From Saccoglossus kowalevskii (lineage: Eukaryota > Hemichordata > Enteropneusta > Harrimaniidae), in contig NW_003109096.1 in NCBI RefSeq assembly GCF_000003605.2, positions 129,070 through 175,417 of the forward strand: 46,348 nt of DNA, read 5' to 3'. Each line of letters opens with the position of its first letter. Position 1 is the first letter of the stretch. The notes beneath the pieces were generated by a model. The model did not search any database. It saw nothing but the letters and a program-made list of their open reading frames with translations, and was not told where the DNA came from. Both the position numbers and the translations under genes were made by a program. Below are positions 6,711 to 32,808 of the stretch, piece after piece.

Positions 6711-7040
6711 TTCAAATTTAGAATTTATTTCAAAATATTTATTTCATTCTACACACTTCGAATAATACTGTTATATTATCAGTTACATAACAAAATTTCA
6801 AAATTCATTAAAACAACAAAATGTTTCCCTAAAATGTGAAAATCAGTGAATATAGATAGGAATTTGTATTTTCAACTCTGCTGCTAGCATTCTCCCAGCC
6901 ATTACTTACAGAGCGTGAAACGCCAATCCATGTCCCATAGAGTAGCCAGACATATAGGTGATTGTCTATTGTTGTCCGTCCGTCGTCCGTTCGTCAACAA
7001 TTTATTTTAAAACACTACTAGCTCAATTGCTTTGACACAC
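6711..7040 (+). repeat. Direct repeat R1, first copy (about 320 bp)
   Basis: This segment is nearly repeated at 8006-8323 in the same orientation. Shared landmarks are TCTACACACTTC, the run ATGTTTCCCTAAAATGTG, the segment ACAGAGCGTGAAACGCCAAT and a TCCGTC-rich stretch. The spacing of about 1.3 kb with an inverted repeat between and beside the copies suggests a duplicated mobile or recombining segment. No ORF is associated. Confidence 0.8.
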
Positions 7041-8005: not shown

Positions 8006-8323
8006 TTTTCAAATTTATTTATTTAATTCTACACACTTCAAATAATACTGTTAAATTATCAGTTACATAACAAAATTTCAAAATTCATTAAAACAACAAA
8101 ATGTTTCCCTAAAATGTGAAAATCAGTGAATATAGATAGGAATTTGTATTTTAAACTCTGATGCCACCTAGCATTCTCCCAGTCATTACTTACAGAGCGT
8201 GAAACGCCAATCCATGCCCCATAGAGTAGCCAAACATATAGGTGATTGTCTGTCGTTGTCCATCCGTCGTACGTCCGTCAACAATTTATCTTTAAGAAAA
8301 CTACTAGCTCAATTTCTTTGATA
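8006..8323 (+). repeat. Direct repeat R1, second copy
   Basis: This matches 6711-7040, with small indels around 8150 (an extra CCACC-like insert) and scattered substitutions. The divergence looks modest. The copy lies immediately upstream of the module family that continues to 9990. Confidence 0.8.
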
Positions 8324-8479: not shown

Positions 8480-9990
8480 TGTAGTTGCTTCTTATCAATT
8501 CTGTGAAGCATTGTGTTTTTTTCAAAAGAAATATCTTAAACTGAATGTATTCCATACCACTTTATCTAAAACAAAAAGATCGTCAATTGACTCAGTCTTA
8601 TCAACGTAATAAACGCTACACCTATAAATAGTTAGTTAGACATGATTTACTTCATGGGTCGTGACTCCAGCCAGGCGAGATTAAACAATAGGTGCCAAAG
8701 GTCGATTGTATACGTGCTTCTAGCTGTGACTGATTTTCAACTTCAGCAATGGTTGTCCAAACAAATTGTCTAAAGTAATAACATTACCATTTGAAACAAG
8801 TTAATTTTATAATTGAATTTCACACCAAAATATGTTCATATATTTGATAGACTGGTTGGCGCCGGGATAGCAATTATCATAACGCCATTGTGCTCGAAAG
8901 CCCTGTCTCGCTGTCCCAATATGGTTTATGTGGTAAAATACACTGTATCTACAGTTAGCACGCACACTCAAAATTGGGACAACTGATGGAAGGAACAACG
9001 ATGGCTGTAAATATTGAGACATGTTTTTTTACAACTAGAAAATATGTATATATATGTAAATAACAAAAGTAGGTAGGACGTGTTTTCCGCCAAATCGTTC
9101 CATACAGATTAAGGATTTGAGACACCGGTAGTACAGGGTGCGTCTAGATGACTACGTAACCTTATCTAGACGATATCCTTGATTATATCGTGTAAACAAA
9201 TATGTCGACGGTGTGTGCAAGTCCGTGATGTGCTCAATTATTCAAAAATGGTTATTAAAACGTTACTTTTCACATCATTTACAGCAATGAATTAACATAA
9301 TAAACACGTATAATATTATTAGTTGAATAAATAATTTGCACAATCAAGACTCGGTTATAGAAGCATTCAGCAGCCTTTACCAAGCACCGGACATTGCATT
9401 ACCAATTAAATAAACGAAGTACGACAAGCCAATAATACAGTTTGGATTATCGGCATTTATAATTGTATTGTTTGAACCGTGGATTTGCAAGTAAAGTACA
9501 CACTTATCTTCTTTGCAGCTACGTGCAATAGAGCAACAAATGGACGCATGGCGGCCATACATTTTCATACTTCCTCTGATGAGTTGCTGTCCTGGGCTGA
9601 GTTACAGGGCAAAATGCCAAAGTATAAATACGATAACATAGCGAAAAATGGCGGCCTAGTTAATGATTTGCTGATGCCTAACATCAATCTCTACGTTGCC
9701 ATGGCATGCTTTTGGTGGGGGTATGATACACGCTAGCATGCATTATATTTCATCAGAGATATGATATGGTTGAGACAACAATGCTCTCATCGTGTCGACA
9801 AATATGTATATCGACCTTGGCCCGGGTCAATATTTCGATAGTATATCAGCCTGTACGATGGTTTCCTCCTTAATTATTGACACACACATTCAAGGCATAT
9901 AATACAGAAACGTACAATTTTGCATTTTTAATTCATTAGAACTTTTATATGTGACTTCATCAGTGTATAATTCAGATTTTTAAAAAACTT
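8480..9990 (+). repeat. Duplicated module X, 5' part, copy A
   Basis: This non-coding stretch aligns in the same order with about 22640-23990. Common blocks include AAGAAATATCTTAAACTGAAT, the CTATAAATAGTTAG block, CATGAATTAACATAATAAACA-like and ATAATTTGCACAAT. Copy A and copy C therefore share both this non-coding part and the DED exon that follows. Short frames inside (for example 9479-9736) are not conserved as frames between copies. Confidence 0.75.
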
Positions 9991-10845
9991 TGATCCATGT
10001 AAAAACTTTAAGAATTTCCAATAATCTTCTTGCTGATTCCAATTTATTCATAAATTAGCCAGAATCCTCTGCAATTCTGATGTCACACGTGGCACTCTGC
10101 AACAAAAAAGTTAATAAAGAAATTAACTCGCATACGGAAATGCTTGTAAATAGTTGAAGAAACCAAAATTTGGTTATCAACTGTTTTAACTATAGTATTA
10201 ACAAATTGATTTTATATTAGAAACCAAATTAACTTTCCCGCATAAATACCTCATGAAATGCAGACATGGGGGAATCGATTTAGTTTTCAAGTTATTTTCA
10301 AAGGGTCAGATATTAATTGAAATGTGACACCCACAAAGGTGGCATAATTAAGATGACTGAGCTCATCCATGCAAGTTGTGTGAATATAAACAACACTATT
10401 ATTTTTGACAAACCCTCCTGTACAAGGATAAATATACATTTTCATCTCAAAGGTAACGAAAAAGTATTCGACATAGATATAGCAGTAACTGTCCTCGGGA
10501 TTGGCCCGAAGGAATCATGTGACAATACAGTTTAGTAAACTTGTTTGAGTAAACTTGTTCTCAATGTAATTGCGATATGTAACACATTTTGGTGTATGTT
10601 TGCTATACGTTCCATAATTTTAGATCCGCATCTATATTTATATATCTTAGAAATAATTCAGATGGTTAAGACCCATTTGAGAAATCAGGTTGGCTATTAG
10701 GTATACACGGCCCATACAGAATGGGTAAGCTTACAGTTGATCACAGCGTCCCTGATTTGAAATAAACTCATTATACAGTAACTGTCTATAAACTGTAAAT
10801 AAAATAAGTTTTTTTGAAACCATAAAATGTCTGTAATATACATAC

Positions 10846-11073
10846 CAATATCTCATTTTATGTTCATTTTTTTCTTTAATTCCTCAATCAAGTCTGTACG
10901 CTTAATTTCGTCCAACAGATTCTGTAGCAAACTAATTTTGTATTGTGATAATAAGCCTTGTTCTTGAAGTTTAATAAAAAGGTCCATCGCTGTTTTAATT
11001 TTCTCCAATTCCGCTTTAGCTATTTTATCAGGACCGATACCACGACATAAACCTTTCATTTGCTTCAATTCAT
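10846..11073 (-). CDS. DED exon, copy A (C-terminal part of a death effector domain)
   Basis: A minus-strand exon lies between a CTTGTAG acceptor and a GTATGT donor. After two bases that complete a split codon it reads ELKQMKGLCRG, then ELEKIKTAMDLFIKLQEQG, then LLxNLLxEIKRTDLIEEL, and stops at TGA (10853-10855), seven bases before the donor. The pattern (helix 2 to helix 6, KIKxxxxLFxxLxEQGLLS, and an RxDL motif as RTDL) is that of death effector domains, which pair with other DEDs in apoptotic and inflammatory signalling. Helix 1 should come from an upstream exon not identified. It may be an exon of a DED-only protein or a decayed copy of a receptor exon. Copies B and C share the borders. 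Confidence 0.7.
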
Positions 11074-11317
11074 CTACAAGATTATTATAGTATTATGAGA
11101 ATAGACATCACATTTTTGTATATTTTCGACATCAGTATATTATACAAAGTTATGCAAATGCGATGTTTAGTGCGGCTGTATAATTGTAGTAACAAGTGTG
11201 TAATTGAGCGTGTCTGCTTTGCCATATATGACTAACAGTTATTGTAGTTTATATATGTTGAATCAAAATATGATCATTTGTCCCATGCACCGTCGCCAGA
11301 AACCTGTCACAATGTTG

Positions 11318-11702
11318 NNNNNNNNNNNNNNNNNNNNNNNNNNNNNNNNNNNNNNNNNNNNNNNNNNNNNNNNNNNNNNNNNNNNNNNNNNNNNNNNNNN
11401 NNNNNNNNNNNNNNNNNNNNNNNNNNNNNNNNNNNNNNNNNNNNNNNNNNNNNNNNNNNNNNNNNNNNNNNNNNNNNNNNNNNNNNNNNNNNNNNNNNNN
11501 NNNNNNNNNNNNNNNNNNNNNNNNNNNNNNNNNNNNNNNNNNNNNNNNNNNNNNNNNNNNNNNNNNNNNNNNNNNNNNNNNNNNNNNNNNNNNNNNNNNN
11601 NNNNNNNNNNNNNNNNNNNNNNNNNNNNNNNNNNNNNNNNNNNNNNNNNNNNNNNNNNNNNNNNNNNNNNNNNNNNNNNNNNNNNNNNNNNNNNNNNNNN
11701 NN
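11318..11702. other. Assembly gap
   Basis: A run of N. The flanks match copy B on both sides: CAATGTTG before the gap equals 14400-14407 and CATTTATCG after it aligns near 14577. Copy B has only about 170 bp between those points, so the stated gap length may be nominal or copy A may carry an insertion. Open frames across the gap are artefacts. Confidence 0.95.
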
Positions 11703-11839
11703 CATTTATCGTCAGCGATAACCAACAAAATTATTCAATTGTTTCATTTCATTGTATGTGAGTATTTGAAACGAGCACTCTATATAGAAATATTCTGTTC
11801 TCAAATAAAGCGAGCCATATGTTGCTTTTATTCTCGGGC

Positions 11840-12172
11840 GGACATCGGGGCATTTTTCACCGCCTGGCAACCATCACGGTGAAAACAAAGGCCGAAAACT
11901 CTCAGAAAACGGTACTTTGGGATGGTTGTTGAGACTCCCCTGAATCGTGAAACAAGATAACCCCTGGGTGTGTAACATATATAAATTTGAATGTTCAGGA
12001 TTACTTCAAAGTTGAGTTCCTGTTGTTTTCTCTAATTTTCACCGGCTCTTCGCTCTGTGTTCCGCGTTCCTGGCAGCGCGCGCAGAGCCCATAGAAAACG
12101 TGGTACAGTGGTGTACGTCTTAGCAACGTGGAACGTCTTGGACGTAGCTCCGCCCACGGGGATATGTAAAAA
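11840..12172. other. Copy-A-specific GC-richer block
   Basis: This block is absent from the matching point of copy B, where TTTTATATGATTAAACTGCC continues directly into CCGTCGGCAAAGAATGG. It contains the GC-rich patch GCAGCGCGCGCAGAGCCC and the palindrome-like ACGTGGAACGTCTTGGACGT, unlike the AT-rich surroundings. It could be a small inserted element. No terminal repeats or ORF were recognised. Confidence 0.45.
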
Positions 12173-12424
12173 TGACCCCGATGGTAAAGAATTGTTGTTT
12201 TCAAAGCCGTTATATTCGTCGTGAAAAATAAAAACGATCGCGTTCGATAACCAATAGGTCCGGCCTGGTGTTGAACGTTAGTAAATAGTCTATCGGTACG
12301 TTGAGTGAGTATGCCACAAACAGAGAGGTTAGTTTAACTTGTAAGCAAGTGAGTGAATTGTATTCAATAACATTCCGCAATTGCGTACGTACGGGAAGAC
12401 ATGTTTTCCAGGAATTGCCCCACA

Positions 12425-12932
12425 CAAATTAAGGTATCACAATGCAAGTAGTACGTTGTGTGTCTACATAACTACATACCCTTATCAATATTCCTGGCAA
12501 TCGTATGTAAACAACTTTTAAATGGGTCGACAGTTGGTTCGAATTCGGCCATCGTTTACACGGTGAATAAGTCGGGAGATGAGACGTATCTACGCTGTAA
12601 TGAATATGGTTGTGGAATATCCCCACTGCAGGTTAATATTTGAAATTTCACACATGACAACAACATTTGTTATTGTTACCCGTGATACGCAAATAAATCA
12701 GGGACATTGCGTTGTTGTAAACTGTACACCGCGCATATAACGCGCGCCCCCTAGCGACGAATCCCTTCTATGATGTAAAAGGGGCGAGGTATGCTGTTCA
12801 TAGTATTGATACTGCGGTCGATAAAAAATACTGTACCTTAGAAATGTATAATATACTAAATGTCAATGGCCTACCAATTAAACAAGGATGCAAAACGTAG
12901 AGACGACAAAGAAATGGCGGTAAAATCTTCGG
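12425..12932 (+). repeat. Duplicated module Y, copy 1
   Basis: It matches 26100-26635 in the same orientation. Landmarks are AAGGTATCACAA, GGTCATCGTTTACACG-like, TATCTACGCTG, GTTGTAAACTGTACACCGCG, CTAGCGAC and AAAAAATACTGTACCTTAG. Diverged inverted relatives lie at 28440-28765 and 28925-29115. Module Y here is separated from module Z by module X copy B, whereas at 26 kb the two are contiguous. Confidence 0.8.
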
Positions 12933-13094
12933 ACGAACCCCCCACACGGGCTCGAAGGTTCCTTTTCAATGCACAATATTTTTAAAAGGCGGATAATTTT
13001 TATCACCTGTGGTGCTGGAAGTCCTCACAAAATTTCTCTGATTTTTCCAATGAAATCTACTCAAAAACGCAGGAAATGCCATTTCAGAAAGTTA

Positions 13095-13200
13095 AATTTT
13101 CAAATTTTCTGTTTGGTAGGCGTATTCAAAGTCAATTCCCAGGTCAGACAATGTCACTGACAGTACTCTTCCCTCTTCTGCTGCAAGCGCGGACGACTCT
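13095..13200 (+). repeat. Truncated start of module Z
   Basis: The stretch with CTGTTTGGTAGGCGTATTC, TCAATTCCCAGG and CACTGACAGTACTC matches 14870-14945 and 26680-26750. It stops abruptly where module X copy B begins near 13222, so the exon module seems to have landed in, or been joined by unequal exchange to, a Z module. Confidence 0.7.
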
Positions 13201-13221
13201 GACTTCGAAACGTTTCACCAA

Positions 13222-14790
13222 GACTTTGAGAATTTCCAATAATCTTCTTGCTGATTCAAATTTATTCATAAATTAGCCAGAATCCTCTGCAATTTTGATG
13301 ACACACGTGGCACTCTGTAACAAAAAAGTTAATAAAGAAATTAACTCGCGTACGGAAATGCTTGTAAATAGTTGAAGAAACCAAAATTTGGTTATCAACT
13401 GTTTTAACTATAGTATTAACAAATTGATTTTATATTATAAACCAAATTAACTCTCCCGCATAAATACCCCATGAATTGCAGACATAGGGGAGCCGATTTA
13501 GTTTTCAAGTTATTTTCAAAGGGTCAGATATTGATTGAAAAGTGACACCCACAAAGGTGCCATAATTAAGATGACTGAGCTCATCCATGCAGGTTGTGTG
13601 AATATAAACAACACTTTTATTTTTGACAAACCCTCCTGTACAAGGATAAATATACATTAACATCGCAAAAGTAACGAACAAGTATTCGACATAGATATAG
13701 CAGTAACTGTCCACGGGATTGGCCCGATGGAATCATGTGACAATACAGTTTAGTAAACTTGTTTGAGTAAACTTGTTCTCAATGTAATTGGGATATGTCA
13801 CACATTTTGGTGTATGTTTGCTATACGTTCCATAATTTTAGATCCGCATCTATATTCATATATCTTAGAAATAATTCAGATGGTTAAGACCCATTTGAGA
13901 AATCAGATTGGCTATTAAGTATACGCGGCCCTTACAGAATGGGTAAGCTTATAGTTGATCACAACGTCCCTGATTTGAAATAAACTCATTGTACAGTAAC
14001 TGTCTATAAACTGTGAGTTTTTCGGAAATCATTAAATGTCTATACTATACATACCATTGTCTCATTATATCTTAATTACCCGTTAACACTGGAACCAATT
14101 TTTGTCGATCAATTTTTAGTAACAGATTTACTAGAAAACCAGTATTGTCTTCTGATATCAAGCCTTGTTCTTGAAATTTAATAAAAAGCTTCATCGGTGT
14201 TTTAATTTTCTCCAGTTCAGGACCGATACCACGACATAAATCTTTCATTTGGTTCAGTTCATCTACATGATTAATATATTATTATGAGAATATGCGTATT
14301 ATGGCAGCTTTGCCATATATGGCTAACAGTTATTGTAGTTTATATACGTTGAATCATATTATGATCATTAGTATCATGCACCGTCGCAAGAAACCTGTCC
14401 CAATGTTGGCGCGCGTTTAATAACCCTTATAAGAAGGATCACGATGTTTTATATTCTAATTACCCGGTATTAGTAGAATCAGAATCGAATTATGCTGGCG
14501 AATTCAAAGGTTATTTGATCGCATTCCGTTTGCACACAGAAATGCGTTACTTAGGCATACATATTTTTAAAATCCATTTACCATCGTCGGGGATAACCCA
14601 AAAAGTTATTGTTTCATTTGAATATTTCATATTTGAAACAATATATATAAATATCCTTCACTCTAATAAAGCGAGTCGTATTTTGTTTTTATATGATTAA
14701 ACTGCCCCCGTCGGCAAAGAATGGTTATTTTTAAAACCGTTATATTCGGCGTGAAAAATAAACAAAAACGATTGCGTTCGATTACCACAA
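13222..14790 (+). repeat. Duplicated module X, exon-bearing part, copy B
   Basis: The block parallels 10003-12240 with the same order of landmarks and high apparent identity in non-coding sequence. It lacks the gap and the GC-rich block of copy A. It contains the shortest DED exon. It is flanked by related stretches of about 30 bp near 12893-12930 and 14790-14822 (both AGACGACxAAxAAATGxCG-like). Confidence 0.85.
14055..14262 (-). CDS. DED exon, copy B
   Basis: The minus-strand exon has an ATGTAG acceptor and a GTATGT donor. The frame is open from the acceptor to TAA at 14072-14074, through ELNQMKDLCRGIGP, ELEKIKTPMKLFIKFQEQG and NLLLKIDRQKLVPVL. Compared with copy A, six codons (DKIAKA) are missing in frame and the helix 4-6 part differs at about half its residues. 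The RxDL motif is changed to RQKL. The exon border phase is the same as in copies A and C and in the receptor exon at 19346-19518. Low sequence identity in the exon contrasts with very similar flanks. It is too short to be a whole protein; an upstream exon is required. Confidence 0.6.
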
Positions 14791-15665
14791 AACGCATAGA
14801 CGACTAAAAAATGACGCTAAAATTGTAGCAGCAACATTTCGTCATGACATCGGATCGTGACAGATAAAATTGTCTGTTTGGAAGACGTATTCAAATTCAA
14901 TTACCAGGCTTGACGACGTCACTGACAGTACTCCCCCTCCTCCAGCCAGCGCGTGACGGCGCCGTATAATAAGCGGATATTGACTATGCTTGGCTACCAA
15001 CATATGAAGCTAATCTACGATTGTTGAGTTCCCAAACTCGGTAGAAACCCTGACCACTTATCCACTAATTTCAAATACGCTGTTCCGAGCACGATTTGGC
15101 GTCATTAATCATCTTGGAATACCATAATTATATGTATGAATGATTTTGTATCTGCTATTAAACAATTAATAATCGCTTAGGTTCGAGAATAATCGATATT
15201 ACAAATCTTCAGCCATTTGAGTGTTTATCAACACAACACGTAAACGTGAATACGATCATTTGTTTCTTCTGACAAATATTATTCAAATCATCCTGAGTCA
15301 TGGACACATATGGCTAAGCAGTAGCAGGCGTGACGAATATCGACCACGAACCATGAATATTCGATATTACGTATCACGTGTCAGCCTTTACCACTTTGAA
15401 CACGTTGATGTTCGCAATGCATAGTTAGGCGCGGCGATATCTAATCTATAAGCGATTTAGCATTAGAAATCGGAGGGTATTTTATTTAACGGGGAAAATT
15501 TTATTTAACAAATGTATCATTTTAAAAAAAGTATACATATTTCGTAAAAGACAAGCAATATCATTCTGGAAGAAAATCTAAATAAAAACTGAAGAACAAA
15601 ATAGTTTCCAATTTTTACCAACTTGCCGTCCAAACATTCCGTTGGTCAAACCCATATTTTTTTAA
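14785..15665 (+). repeat. Duplicated module Z, copy 1 (about 880 bp)
   Basis: Near-identical to 26610-27510 over CTAAAATTxTAGCAGCAAC, GACGACGTCACTGACAGTAC, the segment ATCTACGATTGTTGAGTTCC and ACCAACTTGCCGTCCAAAC. Copy 2 has an extra block of about 33 bp at 26981-27013, and other small indels follow near 27065. A palindromic GACGACGTCA lies in both copies. No frame longer than 67 codons is shared, so it is taken as non-coding. Confidence 0.85.
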
Positions 15666-16700
15666 TTTACCTTCTAAATAGTGTCTATCATTTGTTGTAT
15701 TAGGGGCTGAATATTCCAAATGTTCCAAATGGTGACTTGAAAATAACAATCTAAAATTGTTAGTTGATGATCAAGATCGTAACTATTTTTTTCGAAAGCG
15801 AAACAATACTGTGTTTTTTTCATTTTGTTTAGCCACTAGTTTTAAAGAAAAGTGGTGTGGTCTTAAATTTCAATACAAAACGTAATACGTCAAAAATTTA
15901 AGGAAATTTTTAGTGAAAGAAGAATTTATTGAGAAACAATTGCTTTGTGATTAGGAAAATTGGAAGCTAGCCATTGAAAAGCAGATTGTGGTGAGTGGAA
16001 AGACCAATATAGTTTCAGAAATATTTGAAAATGAATCTGATCATTAGCTAAGATACAAGGTATTTAGATTTGATCTCATTATTTTGATGGGCACGATATC
16101 CTTTCTATTGAATATTGGTCTTAGCTTGTACTTGGGTAACATATAAACCTAAGTCCAGTCTGTCATACGTTGGGATAAACTTTTTCTGGTTGACAGCTCA
16201 TTATAATTAGTCACTCAAGTTCAAGTTTTACAAATCTAGTTTTGCTCCTAACCAGACTGATGATGACAATATATTTCTCAGTAATGCCACAATACAGCTA
16301 AACACAACATATGAAAATCGAGGTTCACCCTGACATTTAAAACAGTTTAAATTATTTGAATTCAGCGACTTGTTTTTAGAACTTTTATTTTGCAATTTAC
16401 AGGAAAATGGAGAAAAGTTAAATAAAAGGTAAGCTAAAACTGAAAAAAAATTACAGATTTCATAAGATAAGATTATATAATCAGTGATATATAATGACAT
16501 ATTTATATTTTTAGGTGGAAGCCTATTCAAAACTCTACGTCTAAAGTTAGATATTGTATATATGTATTACGGAGTTGACATTGTTCAGCATAGAATCACA
16601 ATAGAATTTATCGAAAATAGCTACAGGTTTCGCTCTCAAGTTATTGCTTAAAATAGAGTGACTTATACAGTGACATCAATATATGTTGATATGTTATCTT
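15666..16700. other. Non-coding spacer downstream of the NLR relic
   Basis: AT-rich DNA beyond the 3' end of the minus-strand receptor relic. The 100-codon minus frame at 16228-16530 shows no known domain, compositional bias or splice context and is treated as chance. Confidence 0.45.
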
Positions 16701-16703
16701 TCA

Positions 16704-16733
16704 TTTATTCCTTGGAAAGGAAATTAATTTATT
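16704..16733 (-). terminator. Candidate polyadenylation signals of the NLR relic
   Basis: On the minus strand AATAAA occurs at 16728-16733, overlapping the stop codon of the last open segment, and again at 16704-16709. This fits a 3' end for the receptor transcript. Confidence 0.45.
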
Positions 16734-18777
16734 AGAGTATAGCGCCAAGTGAGTACTTTTGTACCTCACCTTCAGTCATTTTTACAGATGTCTTAATTTT
16801 TAGTCTGGGTTTCTCTTCAGGTCCAACATTAGGATCTGTTGTAATATTCAATGTAGCTGAATCTAGTTGGTGTGCAGTAGTCTTACATAAAACCTTTCGA
16901 ATCGCAACAACAACTTCTTTGTCATTCGCATAGCTAAAAAGACTTTTGAAATTGCTAACATGCAGACAAAGTTGATCAACATTTTTCGTTTGGGTGAATT
17001 TTCCTATGAATTCCATCAGTTTCACTGATTTTATTTCAATCCTAGCTAGGTGTGTTTCCTTGCCTTTATGCATAGAGGCCAAATTCTGTATGGACTTTTC
17101 CATATTGCCAAAGTCGATTTCACTGTCTAATACATTTACAACATAAAACATAGGAACCAAATCTTGTATCTGTTTATTTTTCAGAATACTCATGACCAAC
17201 TTCACCAGCTGGGATAAATCAAACTGATCGAATGTGATATCTAAAGGAACTGGAAACATGGTGCATATTAGATAAGGTTTCCAATCATTGATGTATTTTC
17301 CAAAATATTGCATATTGTTTAAAGGGCTGACATTAATTGTTAAAACTCTTAACTTAATTTCGTTCTCTCCAATTTGTCTAATCAACTGAATTTAGTTGGT
17401 GCGATATAGAACAAAAAATCCCACAGTTTTTGATATACCGAGATTCTGCATTCCTATGACTGTTTTCATATTCCAAAAGTTTTAACACTTCTTGAAAAGT
17501 CTGTGTATTACAAAAAAGTAGGCCAACTGAATAGTCAAGCCTATCATCAGGGTTTGTTTCACTTTCAGTAAGTTCGATATCTACTGAAATTGGTTCTAAT
17601 GATATACCTGGCGGTTTGAAAAACAGTGAGAGGTTATACGTCTGGTGGAACATCAATCACACTGTAAACCAACTTCTCTTGTTTGAGGAAGGGATATGCA
17701 AATTCAGTCAACTTGCTTAGAGAAACCAACATCTCGTCTGGAACATTACCCTTATCAGTGAGAGATATGCCTCACAAGATTTTTTCAAAATACACTCTAA
17801 CATTTCTTGATATAATTCTGATAGACAATTAGGTAGATGTCGCTTGTTATCATAGTCTGTCCAGAGGACACAGAGAAAGGAGACATGTAATGGACTGATT
17901 ATCATTTCATCCAAGCTTTCATTCATCTCAGCCAATGGAAGCTTATATTGTTTGAAGTATTTCGTAACATAGTCGTAGGAATCCCATTTGTTAAATCCCG
18001 GAATTTGGTAATGATCATCAATTCCATCTATGTTGCTTTCCATTGGCCTGGTTGTTTCAAGAACCATTGAATTTGGAAACTTCTTTCGTGATATTATTTC
18101 TGGCTAATCTTTGTATTGAACTCACCAAATCCATCAACGAGTAACAGAAAAGAATGCTGATTTCTATTAATGATTTGTTTTAGATCGTCCCTGTTGATTT
18201 TATCATCATCAGGGAGCTCATTGTAGATATCATCTATCAAATCAGCGTTCACATGTCTCATTTCAACTAAATACACTAAATTGAACTGACTCAAAGAACC
18301 ACGAGCCCAGTCATAAGCCAACTTTTTACAGAAAGTGTATTTCCCTATAGCTGGAGCACCTTTAATTTCAAAACGATTAACCACAATGTCCTTAAATACA
18401 TCATGCTCATGACTGAGTGTATTGCTTGTGAAAACACTCAAGGAACCTGTTGACTCGATAACTTCCAGTCTTGTGTAGACCTCTTCTATTGGAAATGTCA
18501 AGGTATCATTCCAAGGAAGTGGATAGAACTGTGCAAACCTTCTACTGTATTTATCTTTCAGAAACTCTATCAAATGTTGTTGGGCTGAAGTATATAAAAT
18601 ATATAAGAACCCCGTTGTCACACGCAACGTAATATTACCGTAATCGGTATAGTACAGGTGTGATGGTTCAAATACCAAAATGGCAACAGTAACAGAAAGA
18701 CTTCCCTGGCGGCGATGATAAAATACGAACACGGAGCCAACAGATGAGGTTTCAATTGGTACTGGTATTATTATACT
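16732..18777 (-). pseudogene. NACHT-domain NOD-like receptor relic
   Basis: The exon follows a TTTGCAG acceptor (a second candidate, TACTTCAG, lies near 18590). It encodes a linker HLIEFLKDKYSRRFAQFYPL then PWND..FPIEEVYTRLEVIE, which precedes NACHT in many invertebrate NLRs. Next come a P-loop read as EIKGAPAIGKYTFCKKLAYD, a Walker B-like FLLLVDGFGEF, a sensor-like VLETTRP, then LHVSFLCVLW and ELYQEMLECIL. A winged-helix-like segment follows (VPDEMLVSLSKL, KLVYSV). NACHT NTPases oligomerise to start innate immune signalling. The frame changes near 18100, 17769, 17620 and 17390, with stops, so no complete protein is possible as assembled. The last 217 codons (16732-17385) are open, perhaps leucine-rich-repeat-like. 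The breaks argue for a pseudogene; assembly errors at all sites are less likely. Confidence 0.8.
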
Positions 18778-18859
18778 CTGCAAACATCAAGTACAACAAC
18801 GTGGTAAAACTCCACTACTCCAATGACTAGATACTTAACCTCCAATACAATTCAACGAG

Positions 18860-19083
18860 ATCTCCGATCTGATCTCAGTGCTGAATAACTCCCCTATATA
18901 TACCCCACTGTCTGTAAATAGACCATTACATCAGCATACATAATGAGTCAGGAACTTACTACAAATTTCTAGAATGTTCCATTACCTTCTATTGCCTCCT
19001 ACAGTGTTCTATTACCTATTCAACCAGTTTCTTAAAAAAATCTAGAATATTCCACCCAGACACAGTACGGTTCTAGAATATTC
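18860..19083 (-). promoter_or_regulatory. Heat-shock-element cluster, TATA box and initiator-like site
   Basis: Two perfect three-unit heat-shock elements (TTC-N2-GAA-N2-TTC) lie at 19071-19083 and 18967-18979, and a near-perfect one at 19040-19052. On the minus strand they are followed by GGGGTATATATAGGGG (TATA at 18895-18902) and a TCAGAT initiator-like site whose A is at 18870, 32 bases after the TATA start. Order and spacing fit an HSF-driven core promoter firing toward the NACHT exon, inside the intron that follows the DED-like exon. The NACHT frame lacks an early ATG, so the product of such a transcript is unclear. Confidence 0.6.
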
Positions 19084-19345
19084 TCAGTGACACAGAAGTG
19101 GTAAATAAGTCGTATGCGACACCCGTTAGTAATAAAACCATGTTATAACTTGTAATTTTGAAATAAAACATATTATAAATGGCTGCCATAGTAATTTATA
19201 CTAAAATAGTATAATAACATACTTGGTCTAAATATGACATGATGGACCCAGAGGAGGGGGAGTATATCCCTATTTGAAAGACAATGTGGGTAGTTATTAA
19301 AGTGCATTGGATTACCCCTAAATACACAATAAGAACACAGCTCAC

Positions 19346-19518
19346 CATTTGTTGAACTTTGTATTCTAAATTATCCTGTCTAAGTCTCACCAGCTTATCA
19401 TGCAAGTACCTCGTGTTTACTACTGTGAGATCGCCACCATGTTGCAACTGCTCAAGTAATTTAAATTGTGTCTCACAATCCTCAAGTTCACACTTAGCTT
19501 TCAAATTCTGAAACGTTT
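19346..19518 (-). CDS. DED-like exon of the NLR relic
   Basis: The exon sits between a strong acceptor (TATTTTTACAG) and donor (GTGAGC). It is 173 nt: two bases plus 57 codons, ending on a codon border (ATG|GTGAGC). It reads TFQNLKAKCELEDCE, then QFKLLEQLQHGGDL, then YLHDKLVRLRQDNLEYKVQQ, with spacing like helices 2-6 of a DED. It starts in phase 1 within helix 2, exactly as do the three DED exons elsewhere in the window, and its end phase matches the NACHT exon start at 18777. The RxDL motif is imperfect (RQDN). It could also be classed as another death-fold member. Helix 1 must be upstream; it was not found before the mariner. Confidence 0.6.
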
Positions 19519-19585
19519 CTGTAAAAATATTTAATTCTTGGTAAAATGATGTATGATTGATATAGAGAGATAATGCAGTTAACAT

Positions 19586-19846
19586 GAGTCAATTTAAAAA
19601 CAGCAACGTGTTTTCAAATGCCATATAATTTAAGATACCAGAATATTAGTCACATCATCGCATTCTAAATTTGAATATAGGTCTAAAGGTTTATTGTCAA
19701 TATGTAATAAGCTAGGCAGTTACACCTCGCATAGAACAAAATGAACATTGGTGATAACCTGTACAGTACAAGCCCATAGGCTGATTGGCGTTCCGCTTAA
19801 AGAACATGTTTTCGGCTGTTCCCGTGGTAGGACATGCACATAAAAC
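19586..19846. other. Spacer between the NLR exon and mariner
   Basis: Nothing coding was recognised. It should contain part of the intron upstream of the DED-like exon on the minus strand. Confidence 0.4.
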
Positions 19847-20880
19847 TACGAGGGGCGTTAAATAAGTAAAGTCCCTGACCCACTTCCAGTTGTCTGATCT
19901 AGAGGAAATTTTGCATGTGTAATGATTTACATCTCCATGGGTTATGTTGCAAAAAAAGCTCTGAACTAATTATGGTTTCTGATTTACAGGTGTTTGAACT
20001 GAGTCAGGTGTGAAATGGAGCCAGTTGAGTGTCGCGCAGCAATCTGGGTTTTGTATTTGAAAGGACGCACACCAAGGGAGACTTTTGATGAAATGAAAGA
20101 AACTTATGGTGATGATGCCCCATCATATGACCTTGTAAAACGCTGGCATCGTGAATTCAAACATGGCCGGAAGTCTGTGGAAACAGCTCCCAGACCTGGT
20201 CATTCCTCTTCTGCCATTGATGAGGCATTTGTCCGTCAAGTTGAGGCAAGATCGACGCATTACTGTTCGCCAAATAGTCCGGGGGGTCAAGATTAGTACA
20301 GGATCTGTGGAAACTATCATTCATGACCATTTGCATATGCATAAGGTGTCTGCCAGATGGGTTCCCAGGTTGCTCACACCTTTCCAGAAGCAAGAATACG
20401 TTGAGTGCTTGAGAATGAATTTGGGGATGTGCCAAGAAGATGAGTCAAAGTTTTTCAATTACATAGGATGAAAGTTGGGTCCATCACTATAATCCAGAGA
20501 CTCACCACCTCCAAAGACTGCAAGGGTGCAGCCCTCCACTGGCAAGGTCATGTCTTCTGGGACCAGGACGGAGTAGTATGACAGATTTACTGGCAGATTT
20601 ACGACCACAATTACAGGAACCTATTACGCTTCACTTTTGATGAAATTAAGAGAAGCTATCAAAGCAAAGTTATCCTTCTCCTGCAGGACAACGCTCCGGT
20701 CAACTCGCATGTCGCCAGATCAGAAGCACGGGTGTGTGGCTATGAAATCTTCCCCAATCCCTCTTACTCTCCTGACCTTGCACCTTGTCTTTGAAAGGAA
20801 AGCGTTTCCCAGATGATGCAGCCTTGATTTCTGAAGTTACGACGTTGTAGGTTTTATAACTAAAACTGGGGCCCCATATA
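19847..20880 (+). mobile_element. Degenerate mariner/Tc1-type transposon
   Basis: The left end begins at a TA with CGAGGGGCGTTAAATAAGTA, a typical mariner terminal sequence, and a transposase frame follows. No matching inverted right end was found. Instead, part of the left end (AGTAAAGTCCxTGACCC) recurs in the same orientation at about 21130, so the right side seems rearranged or deleted. It lies within or next to the NLR relic's upstream intron. Confidence 0.8.
20015..20800 (+). pseudogene. Mariner transposase, frameshifted
   Basis: The ATG at 20015 opens MEPVECRAAIWVLYLKGRTP, a helix-turn-helix DNA-binding start of mariner transposases, through DLVKRWHREFKHGR. The frame breaks near 20245, continues as RRITVRQIVRGVKIS and WVPRLLTPFQK, and breaks again before DESWVHHYNPET (first catalytic Asp near 20467). 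The second Asp is in LQDNAPVNSH (20687-20689). SPDLAPC follows at about 20770, where the usual third catalytic Asp just after LAP is lost and the frame ends. Mariner transposases use a DDD triad to cut and paste the element; this copy must be inactive. Confidence 0.85.
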
Positions 20881-22600
20881 CGTTCCCAAAGAGCACTCAG
20901 TCAAAGTTACAATGGGACTTACGTTGGTACAGTGTAACAATGTCGGCGCCGGAGGTCTCGCTGTCGGAGCGCAACTTCACCAAAATAAAAAGCATGTTCA
21001 TTTGAACACTGCTATTATAAGATTGGTAGGAGGTGATGCATTTGGTGCGAAAGTATTCAAAAATCAGTTTTTGGTCGTTGCCATGGCAACAGTGGTCCAA
21101 TAATCTTTTCAAATGTTACCACCCAACTAGAGTAAAGTCCTGACCCGCCTACCAAATATAATATGTTCTGTGATACATCAAGCAGCATATCTTTGAATGC
21201 TTGTGTTTCACGCACTGGGTTTGGATTCCCTGCATTCTCTCAGTCTGCTGTCGGTTCCATGATGTACAACAACCGAATGTTATCGATCATGTGAGCAGAC
21301 TATCTACTGCATGGTGCGTATAACCCATAAGTCTTTGTGATGAATATTCATGAACGAAATATGAATACAATGGTTAATAAGTAACTGTGTTTCGAAAATC
21401 TACGCCAATCAAAATACCAGGTTGGCTCAAAAGTAAATTATACAAAGCCTACTACAGGTTTAACTTGTAAATTTAACTATTCCAGTTCAAATAAATGTGC
21501 CCCATTACTGTTTTCCAAAATTTTTATTTTTATTTTTGGTATTTTTAAATTTTGGTGTAACGCCTCATTTCAACAGATTTTAAGTTGTTTTATGTAACTG
21601 AAAATCTTATGATACGGAATGTTCCCTCTAAAACAAATCATTATTTGTAGAATTTTAAATTTGTTTTTATTATCATTTGACCCATCACCAATAGTCTTTT
21701 AGAATGTCTCATATATTAAAACCCATTATTTTATATTTGGAATCGTATCAATAATACTTGATTCTCAAGTATAAGAATAACCTATTCAATTTAATTTGCG
21801 TACTGTACCATTCTGTAAACAGGTATACACATGATTTATAATTAAACAACAAGTTTCAAAAGTCAAGTGTTTTGACCTTTCATGGTTGACACTATTCTAT
21901 ATTTGTACATTAACCAATCATTCTATTGAGGACCTCAATACCACAGTCAGCTGGCGTGCACGTGATAATACAATAAATGCGATCAATTTACAGATATTCA
22001 CTATATGGAACCTGCGTTTCTCAACTTGTCTTTTTATTTAGTTTCAAGCTGTATTCAAGATGGCTGGCCCAGTAAATACGGTAAATTTCTCGTGTTATAG
22101 ATGAAATCATTTTCTCAATTTCTGACAACAGTCTCTATGATGTCATACTTGTATGTATTGTATTATAACTATACGAACTTCCATTAATCATTCAGAATGG
22201 ATGGTTCGAAATGAACTAAGACCTATTTACCAACATATTTAAATTAGTCGAATCAGTCTGTCAAAATATATTATCACACATTCTGTTAAGTTTCATTGAA
22301 ATTGTTGTGGTTTAGGTTTCACTGTACTTGTATGGTGTCATATATTGAAATTCGTGAAGTATGAATATTAGACAATAAACATCCAAACTGGCTGACTGCT
22401 TTATGTGATTAAAGATATACACGCTATATGGTACATAAGTATCACACGCCGCCATTGCTGATATTCAGATTCTCATGCTCATCAGGTTCAAAATTAAGAT
22501 AAGATACTTGTCTATGATGATAGAAGACAAAGACACAAATACATTGGTTTCACCGGAATAATGTACACATACACCATACTCCATATTATAGAATCAATAC
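20881..22600. other. Non-coding spacer
   Basis: No gene is supported. The GC-richer patch at 20930-21110 gives overlapping short frames on both strands with no recognisable domain. A single copy of the repeat core (ATTCAAGATGGCTGGCC) lies near 22053. Confidence 0.4.
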
Positions 22601-22639
22601 TGGATGCAAATATCTACTGGAAGTATTTAATAATCAGAA

Positions 22640-25030
22640 CCATCAGTCTCCTTTTGTGAAGCAATGTTTGTTTTTTCTGAAAAGAAATATCTTAAACTGA
22701 ATTTATTCTGGCATTCCCTAAATTGTGTTGAATGTATAGATATCTAAATACAGCAAACAAGTGAAGATCCTGTTTTTTATTGGAAGGTCGGAAAACTCAA
22801 TCCTATCGGTGTAATGAACGCTGCTTCTATAAATAGTTAGCTAGACTCAATTTACCTCATGGGTCGCGACTTTAGTCAGGCGAGACTAGATAATTGGTTC
22901 CAAAAGTCAATTGTATACATGCTTTTTACTGCCATGCCCACATTATTGCTACGTAAAATAGTCGTGCTTTGGATAATTCTATTCCATCGGGGAATTGTAG
23001 GATTCTAGCTATAAAGACAACAGTTCTGAACATTGTCAGTCATTGTGTTTTCTTCTAACAATATTAGGTAAGTAGGACTAAGATCAAGGTTTTGCGATAC
23101 CTGTAGTATAAGGTGCGCCTAAATGACTACATAATCTTATCTATATCCTTGACATGTAACATGTAAACAGCTCACAAATGGGTCAACAGTGTTTGTAAAT
23201 CCGGTGGTCATTGGTTACGCAGTGAATAGGTCAGAAGATACAATTTTACCCAACGAGAAAGATGTGACCAATTATTCCAAAATCGTTATTGAAAAATTAT
23301 TTTGCAAAATATTTACTGCCATGAATTAACATAATAAACATGACTAAAATATTATTAGTTTCATAAATAATTTGCACAATTTAGACTCGGCCATAGAAGC
23401 ATTCAGTAGCCTTTACCAGGCGTCGGACATTGCACAATCCCAATTACATAAACGAGATACAACATGCAAATAATGCAGTTTGGATTATCGGCATTTATAA
23501 TTGCAGTGTTAGAAACGTGAATTAAAGAGAAAATTACACACTTATCTCATTTAGCAGCCATACAATTTCTGTTTTGAGTTGCTATCCTGGTCTGAGTTAC
23601 AGGACAAAATGCCAAAGTATAAATAAATATACCGAAATATGGCGGCCTAGTTAATGATTTTTTGGTGCCTAACATCAATCTCTATGTTTTCGTGGCATGC
23701 TATTGGTTGGGTTATGATACACGCTAGCATGCATATTTCACCAGAAATATGGTTGAGAAAACAATGCTCTCATCGGGTCGACAAATATGTATATCGACCC
23801 TGTCCCGAGTCAATATTTGTATAGTTATATCAGCTTATGGCGGTGGTTTCTTCCTTAAATATTGACACACACATTCAAGGCACAAGGCGTATAACATAAC
23901 AACAATGCATTTTTAATACATTTGAACTTTTATATGGGACTTCATCAGCGTATATATATTCCGAAATGTAAGAATGTAAAAACTTTAAGTACTTCTTGTT
24001 GATTCCAATTTATTCATAAATTAGCAAAAATCCTCTGCAATTCTGATGTCGCACGTGGTACTCTGCAACAAAAAAGTTGATGAAGTAATTAAAACGTGTA
24101 CGGAAAAGCTTGTAAATAGTTGAAGAAATCAAAATGAGATCACCAGCGGTTTTAACTATAGTATTAACAACTTTTATATAAGAAACAAAATCAACTCTCC
24201 CGCACAAATGCCTCACGAAATATAGACATGCGGGAACCGATTTAGTTTTCAAGTTATTTTCAAAGGGTCAAATATTGATTGAAAAGTGACAGCCACAAGG
24301 GTGCCATAAGATGACTGAGCTCATCCACGGACGCTGTGAGAATATAAACAACAATATTATTTTGGCAAACTCTCCTGTACAAGAATAAATATGAGTACAT
24401 TATGTATACATCGTAAAGGTAAAAAAAAAATATCCGATATACATAAATCAGCGACTGTCCAAGGGATTGGTCCAATAGAATCATGTGATAATATAGTTTA
24501 GTAAACTTGTTTTCGTTCTCAATTGGGTTACACATTTTGGTGTGTGTTTACTGTGCTTTACACAATGTTAGATCCACGTTTATTTTGACAAATCAGATTG
24601 GCTATTGAATATACGCAAACCTTAAATAATTCTGTACGTTTATCACAGAAACTGTAAATAAAATCGGAGCACAGTTTTGTGGAAGGCATGAGATGTCTGT
24701 AATATACATACCATTGTCTCATTATTCCTTATCGTGTAACAGTTTAACCAAGTCCTTTCGCCTAATTTTATTAAGCAGATATTCAAGTAAACGAGTATCG
24801 TCTTTTGATATTGAGCCTTGTTCTTTAAGTTTAAGAAAGAGCCCCATTGGACTTTCAATTTTCTCCAGACCAGCTTTAGGTATACTCACAGGACTGTCGG
24901 CGTCACCACGACACAAATATTTCATATCTTTTAGTTCACCTACCAAATTAATATATTTATTTTCATATATTTGTAAGCATGAATCTAAATTGATATATTA
25001 TACACAGTAATACATGCTAGCTACATGCTA
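22640..25030 (+). repeat. Duplicated module X, copy C
   Basis: It parallels 8480-11280 in order and orientation but is more diverged than copies A and B are from each other. Both the non-coding left part and the DED exon part are present, which shows that the left part and the exon belonged to one ancestral unit. Confidence 0.75.
24712..24939 (-). CDS. DED exon, copy C
   Basis: The minus-strand exon has a TTGGTAG acceptor and a GTATGT donor. It is open from the acceptor to TAA (24722-24724), followed at once by TGA. It reads ELKDMKYLCRG, then GLEKIESPMGLFLKLKEQG, then LLEYLLNKIRRKDLVKLL. The RxDL motif characteristic of DEDs is intact (RKDL). The TGA after its TAA lines up with the single TGA of copy A, so that stop predates the duplication. 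The 16-codon candidate start exon at 25372-25419 is upstream on the same strand, though its end phase (0) does not fit this exon's start phase (1), so another exon would be needed. Confidence 0.7.
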
Positions 25031-26099: not shown

Positions 26100-26635
26100 A
26101 TATTAAGGTATCACAACACCGTTAGTACGTTGTGCGCCTACACGAATACATACCCATATCTATCTCCTTGGCAACATCATGCAAACGCTCCATAAATGAG
26201 CGTTTGTTTAATGGGGGTCCGGTCATCGTTTACACGACAAATAAGTTGGGAGGTGGGACTTGATGTATCGACAAGTACGTATCTACGCTGCAATGAAATT
26301 GGTTGTGGGATTTCCCCACTGCAAGTTAATAATTGATGCCAAAATACATACATGACAACAATATTGAGTTATTGTTACCCGAGATACGCATAGTAAACAA
26401 CGACATTGCGTTGTTGTAAACTGTACACCGCGCATATAACACGCCCTCTAGCGACAAATCACTTCTATGATGTAAAAGAGTGCTAGGTATGCTGTTTATA
26501 GTATTGATACTGCGGTCGTTGGGTCGATAAAAAATACTGTACCTTAGAAATGTATAATATATTGAATAACAACGGCAACACAACTAAAGGTCACACAACG
26601 CAGAGACGACAAAGAAATAGCGCTAAAATTTTAGC
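26100..26635 (+). repeat. Duplicated module Y, copy 2
   Basis: It matches 12425-12932. It also contains a perfect short hairpin absent from copy 1 (AAACGCTC, loop CATAAAT, GAGCGTTT at about 26182-26204). Module Z follows directly at about 26610. Confidence 0.8.
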
Positions 26636-28439: not shown

Positions 28440-29260
28440 ACAGATAACAATATCGACGCTGTTGAATCCCCAACACCCATTTACGTAAAACAAGTTCTCC
28501 GTCGCTAGAAGGCGCGCCTTATAAGGATATTTCGACATCAATTATTAACCTGCATTGGGAAAATTCCACAGCTAATTTTATAACAGCGTAGATACGTCCT
28601 TGTTGCCAATACTTACTCACCGAGTAACCGATGGCCACCGGACCCCAGCAACTGTCGACTCCTCTTCGAGACAATTACATGCGATTGCCAAGGATATAGA
28701 TACGGGTATGTAGTTTTGTAGGTGCACACCTTACTACCGGTGGTATTGTACCTTAATTTGTGAGGGACAAATTCCTCTTTTTGTTTATCGGCTTTATGTT
28801 GGTTTCAATTATTTGTGATAGTTTTTACCAAAAATAAAAAAACATCACACAAAGCTAGATTTACTGCTGAATTATTTAAAATTTTCAACAAACTTTAACG
28901 TCGGAACGCTAGGAATGTTATTCAATTAGACGATTGTATTAGATTGTGTTGTCATCAACACACGGTTACATATCACACACTGAGGCCAGGATCTCTCACA
29001 CCCATTTATAAGTCATACAAGAGCGTTGTCGCTAGAGGGCGCGCCTAATATGCGCGGTGTATTCCTTAACAGCAACGCAATGCCGTTGTTTACTCATACG
29101 TATTCACAGTTAGATACTTTCCAAGCCTCTGTTTGTGGAATACTCACAGGGCAAAGGATTTGTTAATTATCGAACGCACTTGTGATAGTTTTTACCAAAC
29201 TCCATAAAACACCACGTGAAGGTATATTTATTGCTGGATCATTTACCATTTACCATTACC
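28440..29260 (-). repeat. Inverted, diverged copies of module Y
   Basis: Read on the minus strand, 28440-28765 contains AATTAAGGTA, CTACATACCCGTATCTATAT, CTTGGCAATCGCATGTAA and GACGTATCTACGCTG, as in module Y. A second partial copy at 28925-29115 holds the CACCGCGCATAT and CTCTAGCGACAA blocks. Both are followed by a direct repeat (GTGATAGTTTTTACCAAA at about 28817 and 29182). Confidence 0.75.
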
Positions 29261-31674: not shown

Positions 31675-32808
31675 AACTCTAATTTGCATGATAATTAGCT
31701 GATTTTTAGCTGTTCCAAGACTGTTCCACTGATATCTGAAGAACCATTAATTGGATTTTGATGAAATTTGGCACATGGATGCTCTGAACTAGTGCGCAGA
31801 TGTGATTAGTTTTGGGTAAAAATCTATGAATATTAATTACCTAATTTGCATGATAATTAACTGATTTTAAGCTGTTCCACTGATTTTTGAAGAACCACTC
31901 ATTGGATTTCAATGAAACTTGGCACATGGATGCTCTGAACTAATGCGCAGATTTGATTAGTTTTGGGTAAAAATCTGCTAATATTATTAATTACCTAATT
32001 TACATAATGATTAATCAATTTTCGGTTTTTCCACTGATANNNNNNNNNNNNNNNNNNNNNNNNNNNNNNNNNNNNNNNNNNNNNNNNNNNNNNNNNNNNN
32101 NNNNNNNNNNNNNNNNNNNNNNNNNNNNNNNNNNNNNNNNNNNNNNNNNNNNNNNNNNNNNNNNNNNNNNNNNNNNNNNNNNNNNNNNNNNNNNNNNNNN
32201 NNNNNNNNNNNNNNNNNNNNNNNNNNNNNNNNNNNNNNNNNNNNNNNNAATTTGCATAATTAGTTAATTTTTTGCTGTTCTATGGCTGTTGCACTGATGT
32301 CTAAAAACCAACCACTCATTGGATTTCAATGAAACTTTTAAAGAGTACCCATCACATTTCAATGAACCTCAGACCATGCACCATATTAGTTTTTGGTAAA
32401 TATTTATGCTTCTTAATCACCTAATTAACATAATTAATTAATACTGATATCTCAAGTATTGATCATCGCATTTGAATAAAACTTGGTACATAAATGCTCT
32501 AGGACAATAGACAGCCTGATTAATTTTAGGTTAAAATCTGTTCATATTAATTCTCTAATTAGCATAATAATTAATAATTATTATATAAATATAATTATTT
32601 TTTTGGTTCTAATCACATTTCAATGAAACTTGGTACATTGTGCAGACCTTTAGTTTTACACTTAAATCTGTTCATATTAGTTACCTTATTTGCATAATTA
32701 GTTTTCAGCTATTCCATCAATATCTCAAGTATAAGTAATTTTGAATTAATTTTTAATGTGTCTCCAAAACTCTCAGCACACGGGAGTTCTTTCTAAGCTT
32801 TCTTTGAT
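31675..32808 (+). repeat. Minisatellite with units of about 135-162 bp
   Basis: Units start at about 31681, 31843, 31997, 32249, 32421, 32555 and 32686, each with CTAATTTGCATAATTA, CTGTTCCACTGAT, GGATTTCAATGAAACTTGG and GCTCTGAACTA-like blocks. Units become more diverged to the right. The assembly gap 32040-32248 falls in the array, as expected for a collapsed tandem repeat. The right edge (32723-32808) matches 29506-29592. Confidence 0.85.
32040..32248. other. Assembly gap inside the minisatellite
   Basis: A run of N of 209 bases, about one and a third repeat units; the true copy number may differ. Confidence 0.95.

Follow-up and report, generated by a model that had tools for sequence, protein, structure and literature searches.

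PEA-15 consists of a single DED followed by a C-terminal phosphorylated tail, and its chains in the PDB reach 130–133 residues, while FADD joins its DED to a C-terminal death domain, and cellular and viral FLIPs carry tandem DEDs and regulate DED assemblies. In other death-fold subfamilies, pyrin-only (POP) and CARD-only (COP) proteins are stand-alone domains born by duplication and are described as restricted to higher primates (plus viral POPs); COP/Pseudo-ICE has 97 aa, and COPs have been called decoys (PMC3775265; PMC identifiers here and below refer to excerpts of the respective papers). Among invertebrates, a DED adjoins NACHT in NLRs of amphioxus, sea urchin, and Nematostella (PMC2575513), and DED-TRADD-N families of oysters and Branchiostoma have undergone lineage-specific enlargement by duplication (PMC8195603). 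Our literature searches on invertebrate DED and DED-only genes, which mostly covered papers outside subscription journals, listed no description of an invertebrate cluster of single-DED genes, and the excerpts of PMC2246300, PMC7831173, PMC12909245, and PMC6321704, which cover domain counts or definitions, did not mention DED-only genes.

Here, we analyzed a stretch of 46,348 nucleotides from Saccoglossus kowalevskii (hereafter the window), for which a preliminary description had proposed an array of three DED “half-exons” with a common acceptor phase and GTATGT donors. The three minus-strand exons are indeed present; an AG acceptor and a GTATGT donor flank each of them, and, judging from the reading frames, all three acceptors are phase 1 (Table 1). 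In A and C, however, they are not half-exons but the second exons of complete gene models, in which an upstream first exon provides the ATG, encodes helix 1 of the DED, and ends at a GTATGT donor whose phase (1) agrees with that of the exon 2 acceptor. The models of gene A (12552-10853, minus strand) and gene C (26226-24722, minus strand) would give proteins of 97 and 96 aa, respectively, each closed at both ends and comprising one DED, in line with the small DED-only proteins suggested earlier. Among 302 candidates in the window, exon 1 of C ranked first and that of A second as DED helix 1 (scores of 23.0 and 18.7, next 7.7), and both genes display an in-frame TAA two codons 5′ of the ATG (TAA, ACG, ATG). 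Readings with two DEDs or with a DED and a death domain were rejected because the A and C frames are closed at both ends, as was read-through of the DED exons into NACHT, since stops intervene. We consider it likely, with a probability of roughly 0.6, that the cluster is a birth-and-death family of small three-exon genes, each with one stand-alone DED, of which A and C are complete and the rest are dead. In this scheme, translation would start in exon 1, which encodes helix 1; helices 2–6 and the stop codon would lie in exon 2, and a short third exon would probably consist only of 3′UTR with a poly(A) signal. The open frames, DED match, closed ends, and duplications can be read directly from the sequence; splicing and expression we infer. 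Searches of Rfam (at gathering score) and for tRNAs gave no match, and a scan against viral contigs gave 59 pattern matches with no relative by tblastn.

Table 1 Coordinates of DED-related features, numbered from the first letter of the window
Feature	Position	Strand	Description
Gene A, exon 1 (coding part)	12480..12552	-	ATG, DED helix 1 (MAEFEPTVDPFKSCLHTIARNIDK), phase-1 donor GTATGT
Gene A, exon 2	10846..11073	-	DED helices 2–6, TGA 10855-10853, then 7 nt, donor GTATGT
Gene A, candidate exon 3 (3′UTR)	10043..10096	-	acceptor TTTTTTGTTGCAG ending 10097; AATAAA 10048-10043
Gene A, shared 5′ flank	12575..12840	-	83–98% identity to C in five 60-column windows
Gene A flank, kB-type motif	12623-12614	-	GGGATATTCC
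Copy B, exon 2	14055..14262	-	DED helices 2–6; RxDL changed to RQKL; TAA 14074-14072
Copy B, counterpart of candidate exon 3	13261..13314	-	acceptor ending 13315; AATAAA 13266-13261
Gene C, exon 1 (coding part)	26154..26226	-	ATG, DED helix 1 (MTGPPLNKRSFMERLHDVAKEIDM), phase-1 donor GTATGT
Gene C, exon 2	24712..24939	-	DED helices 2–6, TAA TGA 24724-24719, then 7 nt, donor GTATGT
Gene C, candidate exon 3 (3′UTR)	24009..24062	-	acceptor as in A, ending 24063; AATAAA 24014-24009
Gene C, kB-type motif	26307..26316	-	GGGAAATCCC; 80 nt 5′ of ATG, place homologous to that in A
Copy D, remnant exon 1 (opposite strand)	28631..28705	+	ATG and donor GTATGT present; helix-1 frame differs from ATG frame
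Copy E, remnant exon 1	23135..23211	-	ATG present; frameshift within helix 1; donor GT lost
Copy F, remnant exon 1	9160..9228 (start approximate)	-	without ATG, frame broken, donor altered
Probable decayed DED-NACHT gene	16732..19520	-	DED exon and NACHT split over different frames

The domain assignment was evaluated with the Pfam DED profile (PF01335, gathering cut-off 35.9 bits). Consistent with the earlier assignment to helices 2–6, the exon 2 peptides alone matched the profile beginning at its position 15 or 16 (E = 7.5e-15 in A, 5e-13 in B, and 1.7e-14 in C). Adding exon 1 lifted the score from 55.4 to 69.8 bits in A (E = 2.5e-19, residues 11–92 covering profile positions 1–78 of 82) and from 54.2 to 62.6 bits in C (E = 4.2e-17, residues 11–93 covering 1–77 of 82). 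The Pfam scan detected no other domain in A or C, and none of the 16 sequences submitted to it matched a death-domain family. Among solved structures, FADD DEDs were closest in sequence (A, 1.3e-10; C, 7.7e-9), with caspase-8 nearly as close for A only, rather than PEA-15 or viral FLIP; the preliminary description had compared the possible action of these proteins with that of PEA15-like or FLIP-like ones. An AlphaFold model of exon 2 alone, i.e., lacking the helix-1 exon, displayed five helices (pLDDT 76, pTM 0.66), and a PDB fold search with this model returned four matches (best E 6.4), none of them a fold match.

The residues at the places of FADD His9, Glu19, and Lys33 are unchanged in A and C, as is the RxDL motif; Glu19 of FADD also has a role among the DED residues compared. 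For the roles of the other FADD residues we follow PMC4558505 and PMC7054686. The E/D-RxDL charge triad (defined in PMC4558505) reads E and RTDL in A and E and RKDL in C, while in B a Lys replaces the Asp; within this motif, FADD D74A was wild-type-like in cells but failed in lysate (PMC11074299). At the places of the FADD hydrophobic patch F25, L28, and K33 (PMC4558505), the alignments show Gly, Arg, and Lys in A and Tyr, Arg, and Lys in C. The top-scoring FADD chains themselves have Gly or Tyr at position 25, and the FADD chain in the Phe25 form (9l5w) still matched both A (2.6e-9) and C (2.9e-8). C carries Tyr at this place, and FADD F25Y failed to bring about caspase-8 activation when assayed in lysate (PMC11074299), so that C, too, may depart from normal adaptor behavior; for F25G, our literature search retrieved nothing. 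Unlike FADD, A and C lack a C-terminal death domain, and their frame stops directly after helix 6. They resemble PEA-15 in having one DED and no other recognized domain, but match it weakly (E 0.038–0.12) and end 3–5 residues past the Pfam DED match, without a PEA-15-like tail. As for FLIPs, a role in regulating DED assemblies would be shared, but A and C have one DED rather than two, bounded by the upstream TAA and the stop after helix 6, and the multidomain DED-TRADD-N and DED-NACHT proteins differ likewise, DED being the only domain found in A and C, with no NACHT.

The position of the stop raises the question of where these genes end. As noted before, all three exons stop shortly before the donor, the first stop lying 7 (A), 10 (C), and 17 nt (B) upstream of it. 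Under the usual rule for nonsense-mediated decay, 50–55 nt, this donor is too close to the stop, supporting the earlier view that the mRNA is not an obvious decay target. We rejected a phase-compatible coding continuation into exon 3, since the DED frame is closed by then and, in A, another stop follows shortly behind the acceptor. Downstream of exon 2, an acceptor and an AATAAA are conserved in 3/3 copies, so that the donor beside the stop may be the genuine donor of a 3′UTR intron, although this conservation is weak evidence because the duplicated block is similar throughout. The candidate acceptor is the only one between 10846 and 9600 to pass a crude filter in A, three other sites also passed this filter in C, and the exon 2 acceptors are themselves pyrimidine-poor. 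A competing reading, which we deem possible but rather doubtful, makes exon 2 terminal, with a transcript extending to a poly(A) signal further downstream; the protein would be unchanged and the 3′UTR would have no intron. The GTATGT, which occurs 33 times on the two strands of the window, would then be incidental, and the distance from the stop to the first AATAAA is 805 nt in A, 451 nt in B, and 135 nt in C. The hexamer is, however, identical in all three copies, each of which also has a strong conserved acceptor ~50 nt 5′ of the common AATAAA.

The other copies of the family seen appear broken, and the earlier notion of three working copies is not supported in the case of B. Its exon 2 is 18 nt shorter than that of A and 24 nt shorter than that of C in the helix 2–3 region, no exon 1 was found upstream, and the sequence before it resembles C as far as 14786 and A intron 1 from 14787, a switch indicating that the exon 1 segment is missing. 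With its altered RxDL and dN/dS near 1 against both A and C, B is probably a pseudogene. Three further exon 1 remnants were detected (D, E, and F), with no exon 2 seen for D. The adjacent DED-NACHT receptor invoked in the preliminary description falls into three or more separate open frames in the present assembly and looks like a pseudogene too; it recalls the NLRs in which DED adjoins NACHT, and its DED exon has a phase-1 acceptor near 19520, at the DED position equal to that of the A–C acceptors. All copies might be pseudogenes or relics of a longer DED-containing gene, e.g., DED-NACHT, in which an inactivating stop became fixed ahead of the duplication and the open frames merely persist. 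This we regard as unlikely, despite the shared acceptor position and phase, the donor still present after the stop, the decayed neighbor, the breakage of 4/6 copies seen (B, D, E, and F), and the dN/dS of B. At a dS of ~0.8, A and C retain the ATG, both splice sites, frame, RxDL, and DED match, and the stop falls after helix 6 rather than within the domain. Their dN/dS, resting on 93 codons with dS near 0.8, was 0.39 for exon 2 (bootstrap dN-dS −1.78 to −0.11), 0.55 for both exons (−0.97 to −0.01), and 1.39 with a wide interval for exon 1 alone. When random substitutions were simulated on the A coding sequence (3000 runs), 21.9%, 7.5%, and only 2.4% of copies stayed stop-free at 10%, 20%, and 30% change, respectively. 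The coding gaps between A and C are both 6 nt long; among flank indels, 3/12 are multiples of three. The constraint may partly have been exerted on other paralogs.

A single simple history does not fit both exons and flanks, as A–C flanks are ~82% identical against a coding dS of 0.77. Sharing between B and C is clustered in 10951-10797 (21/35 informative sites, with 0/300 shuffles as extreme), and together with a raised silent divergence this fits conversion from a divergent paralog; gene conversion would best explain this mosaic part of exon 2, stop included. The stop may therefore have spread by conversion, so that its proposed origin before the duplication is likely but not secure. The TGAs of A and C do align, as described previously, but the first stop of C is a TAA, with the aligned TGA the next codon; B has the TGA letters too, but a 2-nt change has put them out of frame, and its actual stop is an earlier TAA. 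Diversifying selection on the DED, instead of recombination, is improbable and not favored as the cause of the exon 2 divergence: one 60-column window in the 3′ part does show an A–B identity of only 57%, against differences at only 34/777 sites in the downstream flank, and dN/dS reaches 1.59 (B–C 3′ half), 1.18 (A–B 3′ half), and 1.39 (A–C exon 1), but all three dN-dS intervals include zero, A–B silent sites are also raised (~7/19 vs 4.4% in the flank, Fisher 1.8e-5), and the B–C sharing is clustered.

As for function, DED-only proteins of this kind could dock onto complexes of cell-death or immune signaling and modulate them, and A and C may serve as decoys or adaptors, as proposed earlier. 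They would act by homotypic DED–DED contacts, a step further from the sequence than splicing and expression, and would either join DED assemblies, whether FADD/caspase-8-like or DED-NACHT, or cap them, much as CARD-only and pyrin-only proteins do with other death-fold assemblies. More of the usual contact residues are retained in C than in A; lacking the aromatic residue of helix 2, A might bind via one face only. A more speculative scenario, and a long shot at present, is an invertebrate counterpart of the primate pyrin-only and CARD-only proteins, i.e., a cluster of fast-turnover DED-only regulators, perhaps NF-kB-inducible and remodeled by gene conversion, with C a chain extender and A, without an aromatic of the FADD Phe25 type, a one-sided cap. 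If expressed, A and C would be minimal natural DEDs clustered with a DED-NACHT relic, would show a repeated origin of death-fold-only regulators, and would offer small proteins for testing which DED faces extend or cap a chain.

A kB-type motif occurs in the 5′ DNA of both genes and, as a regulatory sign, is only a hint. Across the window it gave six strand matches at four places (mean expected 1.42, with 1/100 shuffles having as many), the two gene-linked motifs being homologous.

Exon 2, present as three minus-strand copies (A, B and C), encodes helices 2-6 of a DED. The peptides matched the Pfam DED profile at 7.5e-15 (A), 5e-13 (B) and 1.7e-14 (C), entering it at position 15 or 16, i.e., without helix 1, and all three acceptors are in phase 1. 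These matches, along with the splice sites, bear out the preliminary description of three DED exons here with a common acceptor phase and GTATGT donors. The sole structure predicted, that of exon 2 alone, gave no fold match. For genes A and C, the missing helix is supplied by a predicted exon 1 comprising an in-frame TAA, ACG, ATG, ~10 residues, DED helix 1, and a phase-1 GG/GTATGT donor. With this exon added, the predicted spliced proteins (97 aa for A, 96 aa for C) matched the Pfam DED over nearly its full length, and scores rose to 69.8 and 62.6 bits, respectively. As a control, we took every distinct stretch, on either strand of the window, that runs for 15-59 codons from an ATG to a phase-1 donor (302 in all) and ranked them by their score against the first helix from FADD and from the two caspase-8 DEDs, the window's own DEDs not being used in the score: although already found before this ranking, the first exons of C and A came first (23.0) and second (18.7), with the third candidate at 7.7. 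An assembly gap (run of N, 11318-11702) lies within intron 1 of gene A.

Coordinates of DED exon copies and exon-1 remnants in the window
Feature	Position	Strand	Context
Exon 1 of gene A	12552-12480	-	upstream of exon 2 A
Exon 2 of A	11073-10846	-	flanked by AG acceptor and GTATGT donor
Exon 2 of B	14262-14055	-	flanked by AG acceptor and GTATGT donor
Exon 1 of gene C	26226-26154	-	upstream of exon 2 C
Exon 2 of C	24939-24712	-	flanked by AG acceptor and GTATGT donor
Exon-1 remnant D, broken	28631-28705	+	helix-1 frame differs from ATG frame
Exon-1 remnant E, broken	23211-23135	-	frame shifted in helix 1, donor GT lost
Exon-1 remnant F, broken	about 9228-9160	-	ATG absent, frame broken, donor changed

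A kB-type motif lies at a homologous place upstream of the ATG, 61 nt away in A and 80 nt in C; the bases differ between the two while fitting the same consensus, and this gives no more than a hint of immune control. A lone copy of the 5' flank of these genes occurs at 29013-29103 (+), and no DED exon was seen to follow it.

The first stop precedes the exon-2 donor by 7 nt in A, 17 nt in B, and 10 nt in C. The earlier proposal of a TGA shared by A and C holds in that the two align in frame, but the first stop of C is a TAA one codon ahead, and the corresponding TGA of B, following a 2-nt change, does not lie in the reading frame. Downstream, ~650-750 nt from the donor, all three copies carry an acceptor, AACTTTTTTGTT(G/A)CAG, followed after ~50 nt by AATAAA (10048 in A, 13266 in B, 24014 in C), which together mark a probable 3'UTR exon. 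In a crude acceptor filter this site was the sole pass in A and B, while C had three further passes. By the usual rule, nonsense-mediated decay calls for a stop >50-55 nt before the last junction; since the stop lies so close to the predicted one, ordinary decay would not be expected to target this transcript, in agreement with the preliminary description. Given AATAAA motifs ahead of the conserved one in B (451 nt after the stop) and C (135 nt after it), the mRNA may instead end with exon 2, with no 3'UTR intron and an unchanged protein. The donor could have been an accident, but acceptor and AATAAA recur downstream in all three copies.

Only 2 of the 6 copies seen in the window, A and C, are intact. 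Between them, dN/dS was 0.39 for exon 2 (dN-dS interval -1.78 to -0.11) and 0.55 for both exons (-0.97 to -0.01); for exon 1 alone it was 1.39 with an interval spanning zero, from which helix-1 constraint does not follow. The two coding gaps are of 6 nt each, vs 3 of 12 downstream-flank indels in multiples of three. In comparisons with B, dN/dS was 0.96 (A-B) and 0.98 (B-C). B has RQKL in place of the DED charge motif RxDL and no exon 1 in its upstream DNA, which is C-like down to 14786 and resembles intron 1 of A from 14787. The A-C downstream flanks (9580-10546 vs 23575-24512) are ~82% identical, exon-2 windows lower (59-73%), and dS in the coding sequence is 0.77. This is at odds with a simple history: the exons have a different past from that of the flanks, presumably through conversion, so that part of the A-C constraint may stem from other paralogues.

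Downstream, A-B differences affect 34 of 777 flank sites, yet the identity of the two drops to 57% in a single window within the 3' portion of exon 2. Sites that B shares with C but not with A are concentrated at 10951-10797 (21 of the 35 informative sites there, vs 43 of 180 overall), a tract picked as the best one, with none of 300 likewise treated shuffles as extreme. Selection on the protein alone fits this divergence less well, because silent A-B sites are raised too (~7/19, Fisher 1.8e-5); a conversion tract would be the better explanation. Since the stop lies within this mosaic tract, the earlier proposal that it predates the duplication is likely but not secure.

For both proteins, the best PDB matches were FADD DEDs (1.3e-10 for A, 7.7e-9 for C), the two top chains having Gly (A's match) and Tyr (C's match) as residue 25, just as A and C do; FADD with Phe25 (9l5w) scored 2.6e-9 and 2.9e-8. 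Caspase-8 followed closely for A (3e-10) and reached only 0.001 for C, whereas PEA-15 was a weak match for both (0.038-0.12). In the alignment, A and C retain the His9 and Lys33 of FADD, while Phe25 is replaced by Gly in A and Tyr in C, and Leu28 by Arg in both. FADD has two faces, one marked by His9 (helix 1) and the other by Phe25 (helix 2), and changing either residue weakens binding to the caspase-8 DEDs, F25A leaving FLIP binding unaffected (PMC7054686); F25R hardly restores caspase-8 activation in cells, and F25Y fails in a lysate assay (PMC11074299). From this alignment, C is proposed as a possible, perhaps weak, participant in DED chains, and A as a possible cap. Pyrin-only and CARD-only proteins offer parallels (PMC3775265).

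DED-NACHT genes are described from amphioxus, sea urchin, and Nematostella (PMC2575513), and expanded multidomain DED families from oysters and Branchiostoma (PMC8195603). The DED-NACHT gene between B and C (16732-19520, -) has a DED exon acceptor near 19520 that matches those of the exon-2 copies both in phase and in its place within the DED. Its DED match is weak (0.024), its NACHT domain is broken across two frames (profile 5-99 and 113-166), no single frame stays open over 18786-16732, and a candidate helix-1 exon (21259-21150, FKDMLLDVSQNI) has an in-frame TGA stop and an ill-fitting donor phase. Judged from its reading frames, this gene is probably a pseudogene, unless the breaks reflect an assembly fault.

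Elsewhere in the window, plus-strand ORFs at 39896-44030 appear by eye retroelement-like, with reverse transcriptase and tyrosine-recombinase-like parts, and are presumably DIRS or Ngaro-like; Pfam returned for 42499-43083 a weak RVT_3 match alone, below cut-off. The ORF at 20139-20471 resembles by eye a mariner transposase N-terminus, with no Pfam match at 0.01. A ~310-bp direct repeat (6728-7035 and 8007-8321) is 93% identical, and a tandem repeat at 31721-32039 (151-bp unit, 2.1 copies) abuts an assembly gap at its end.
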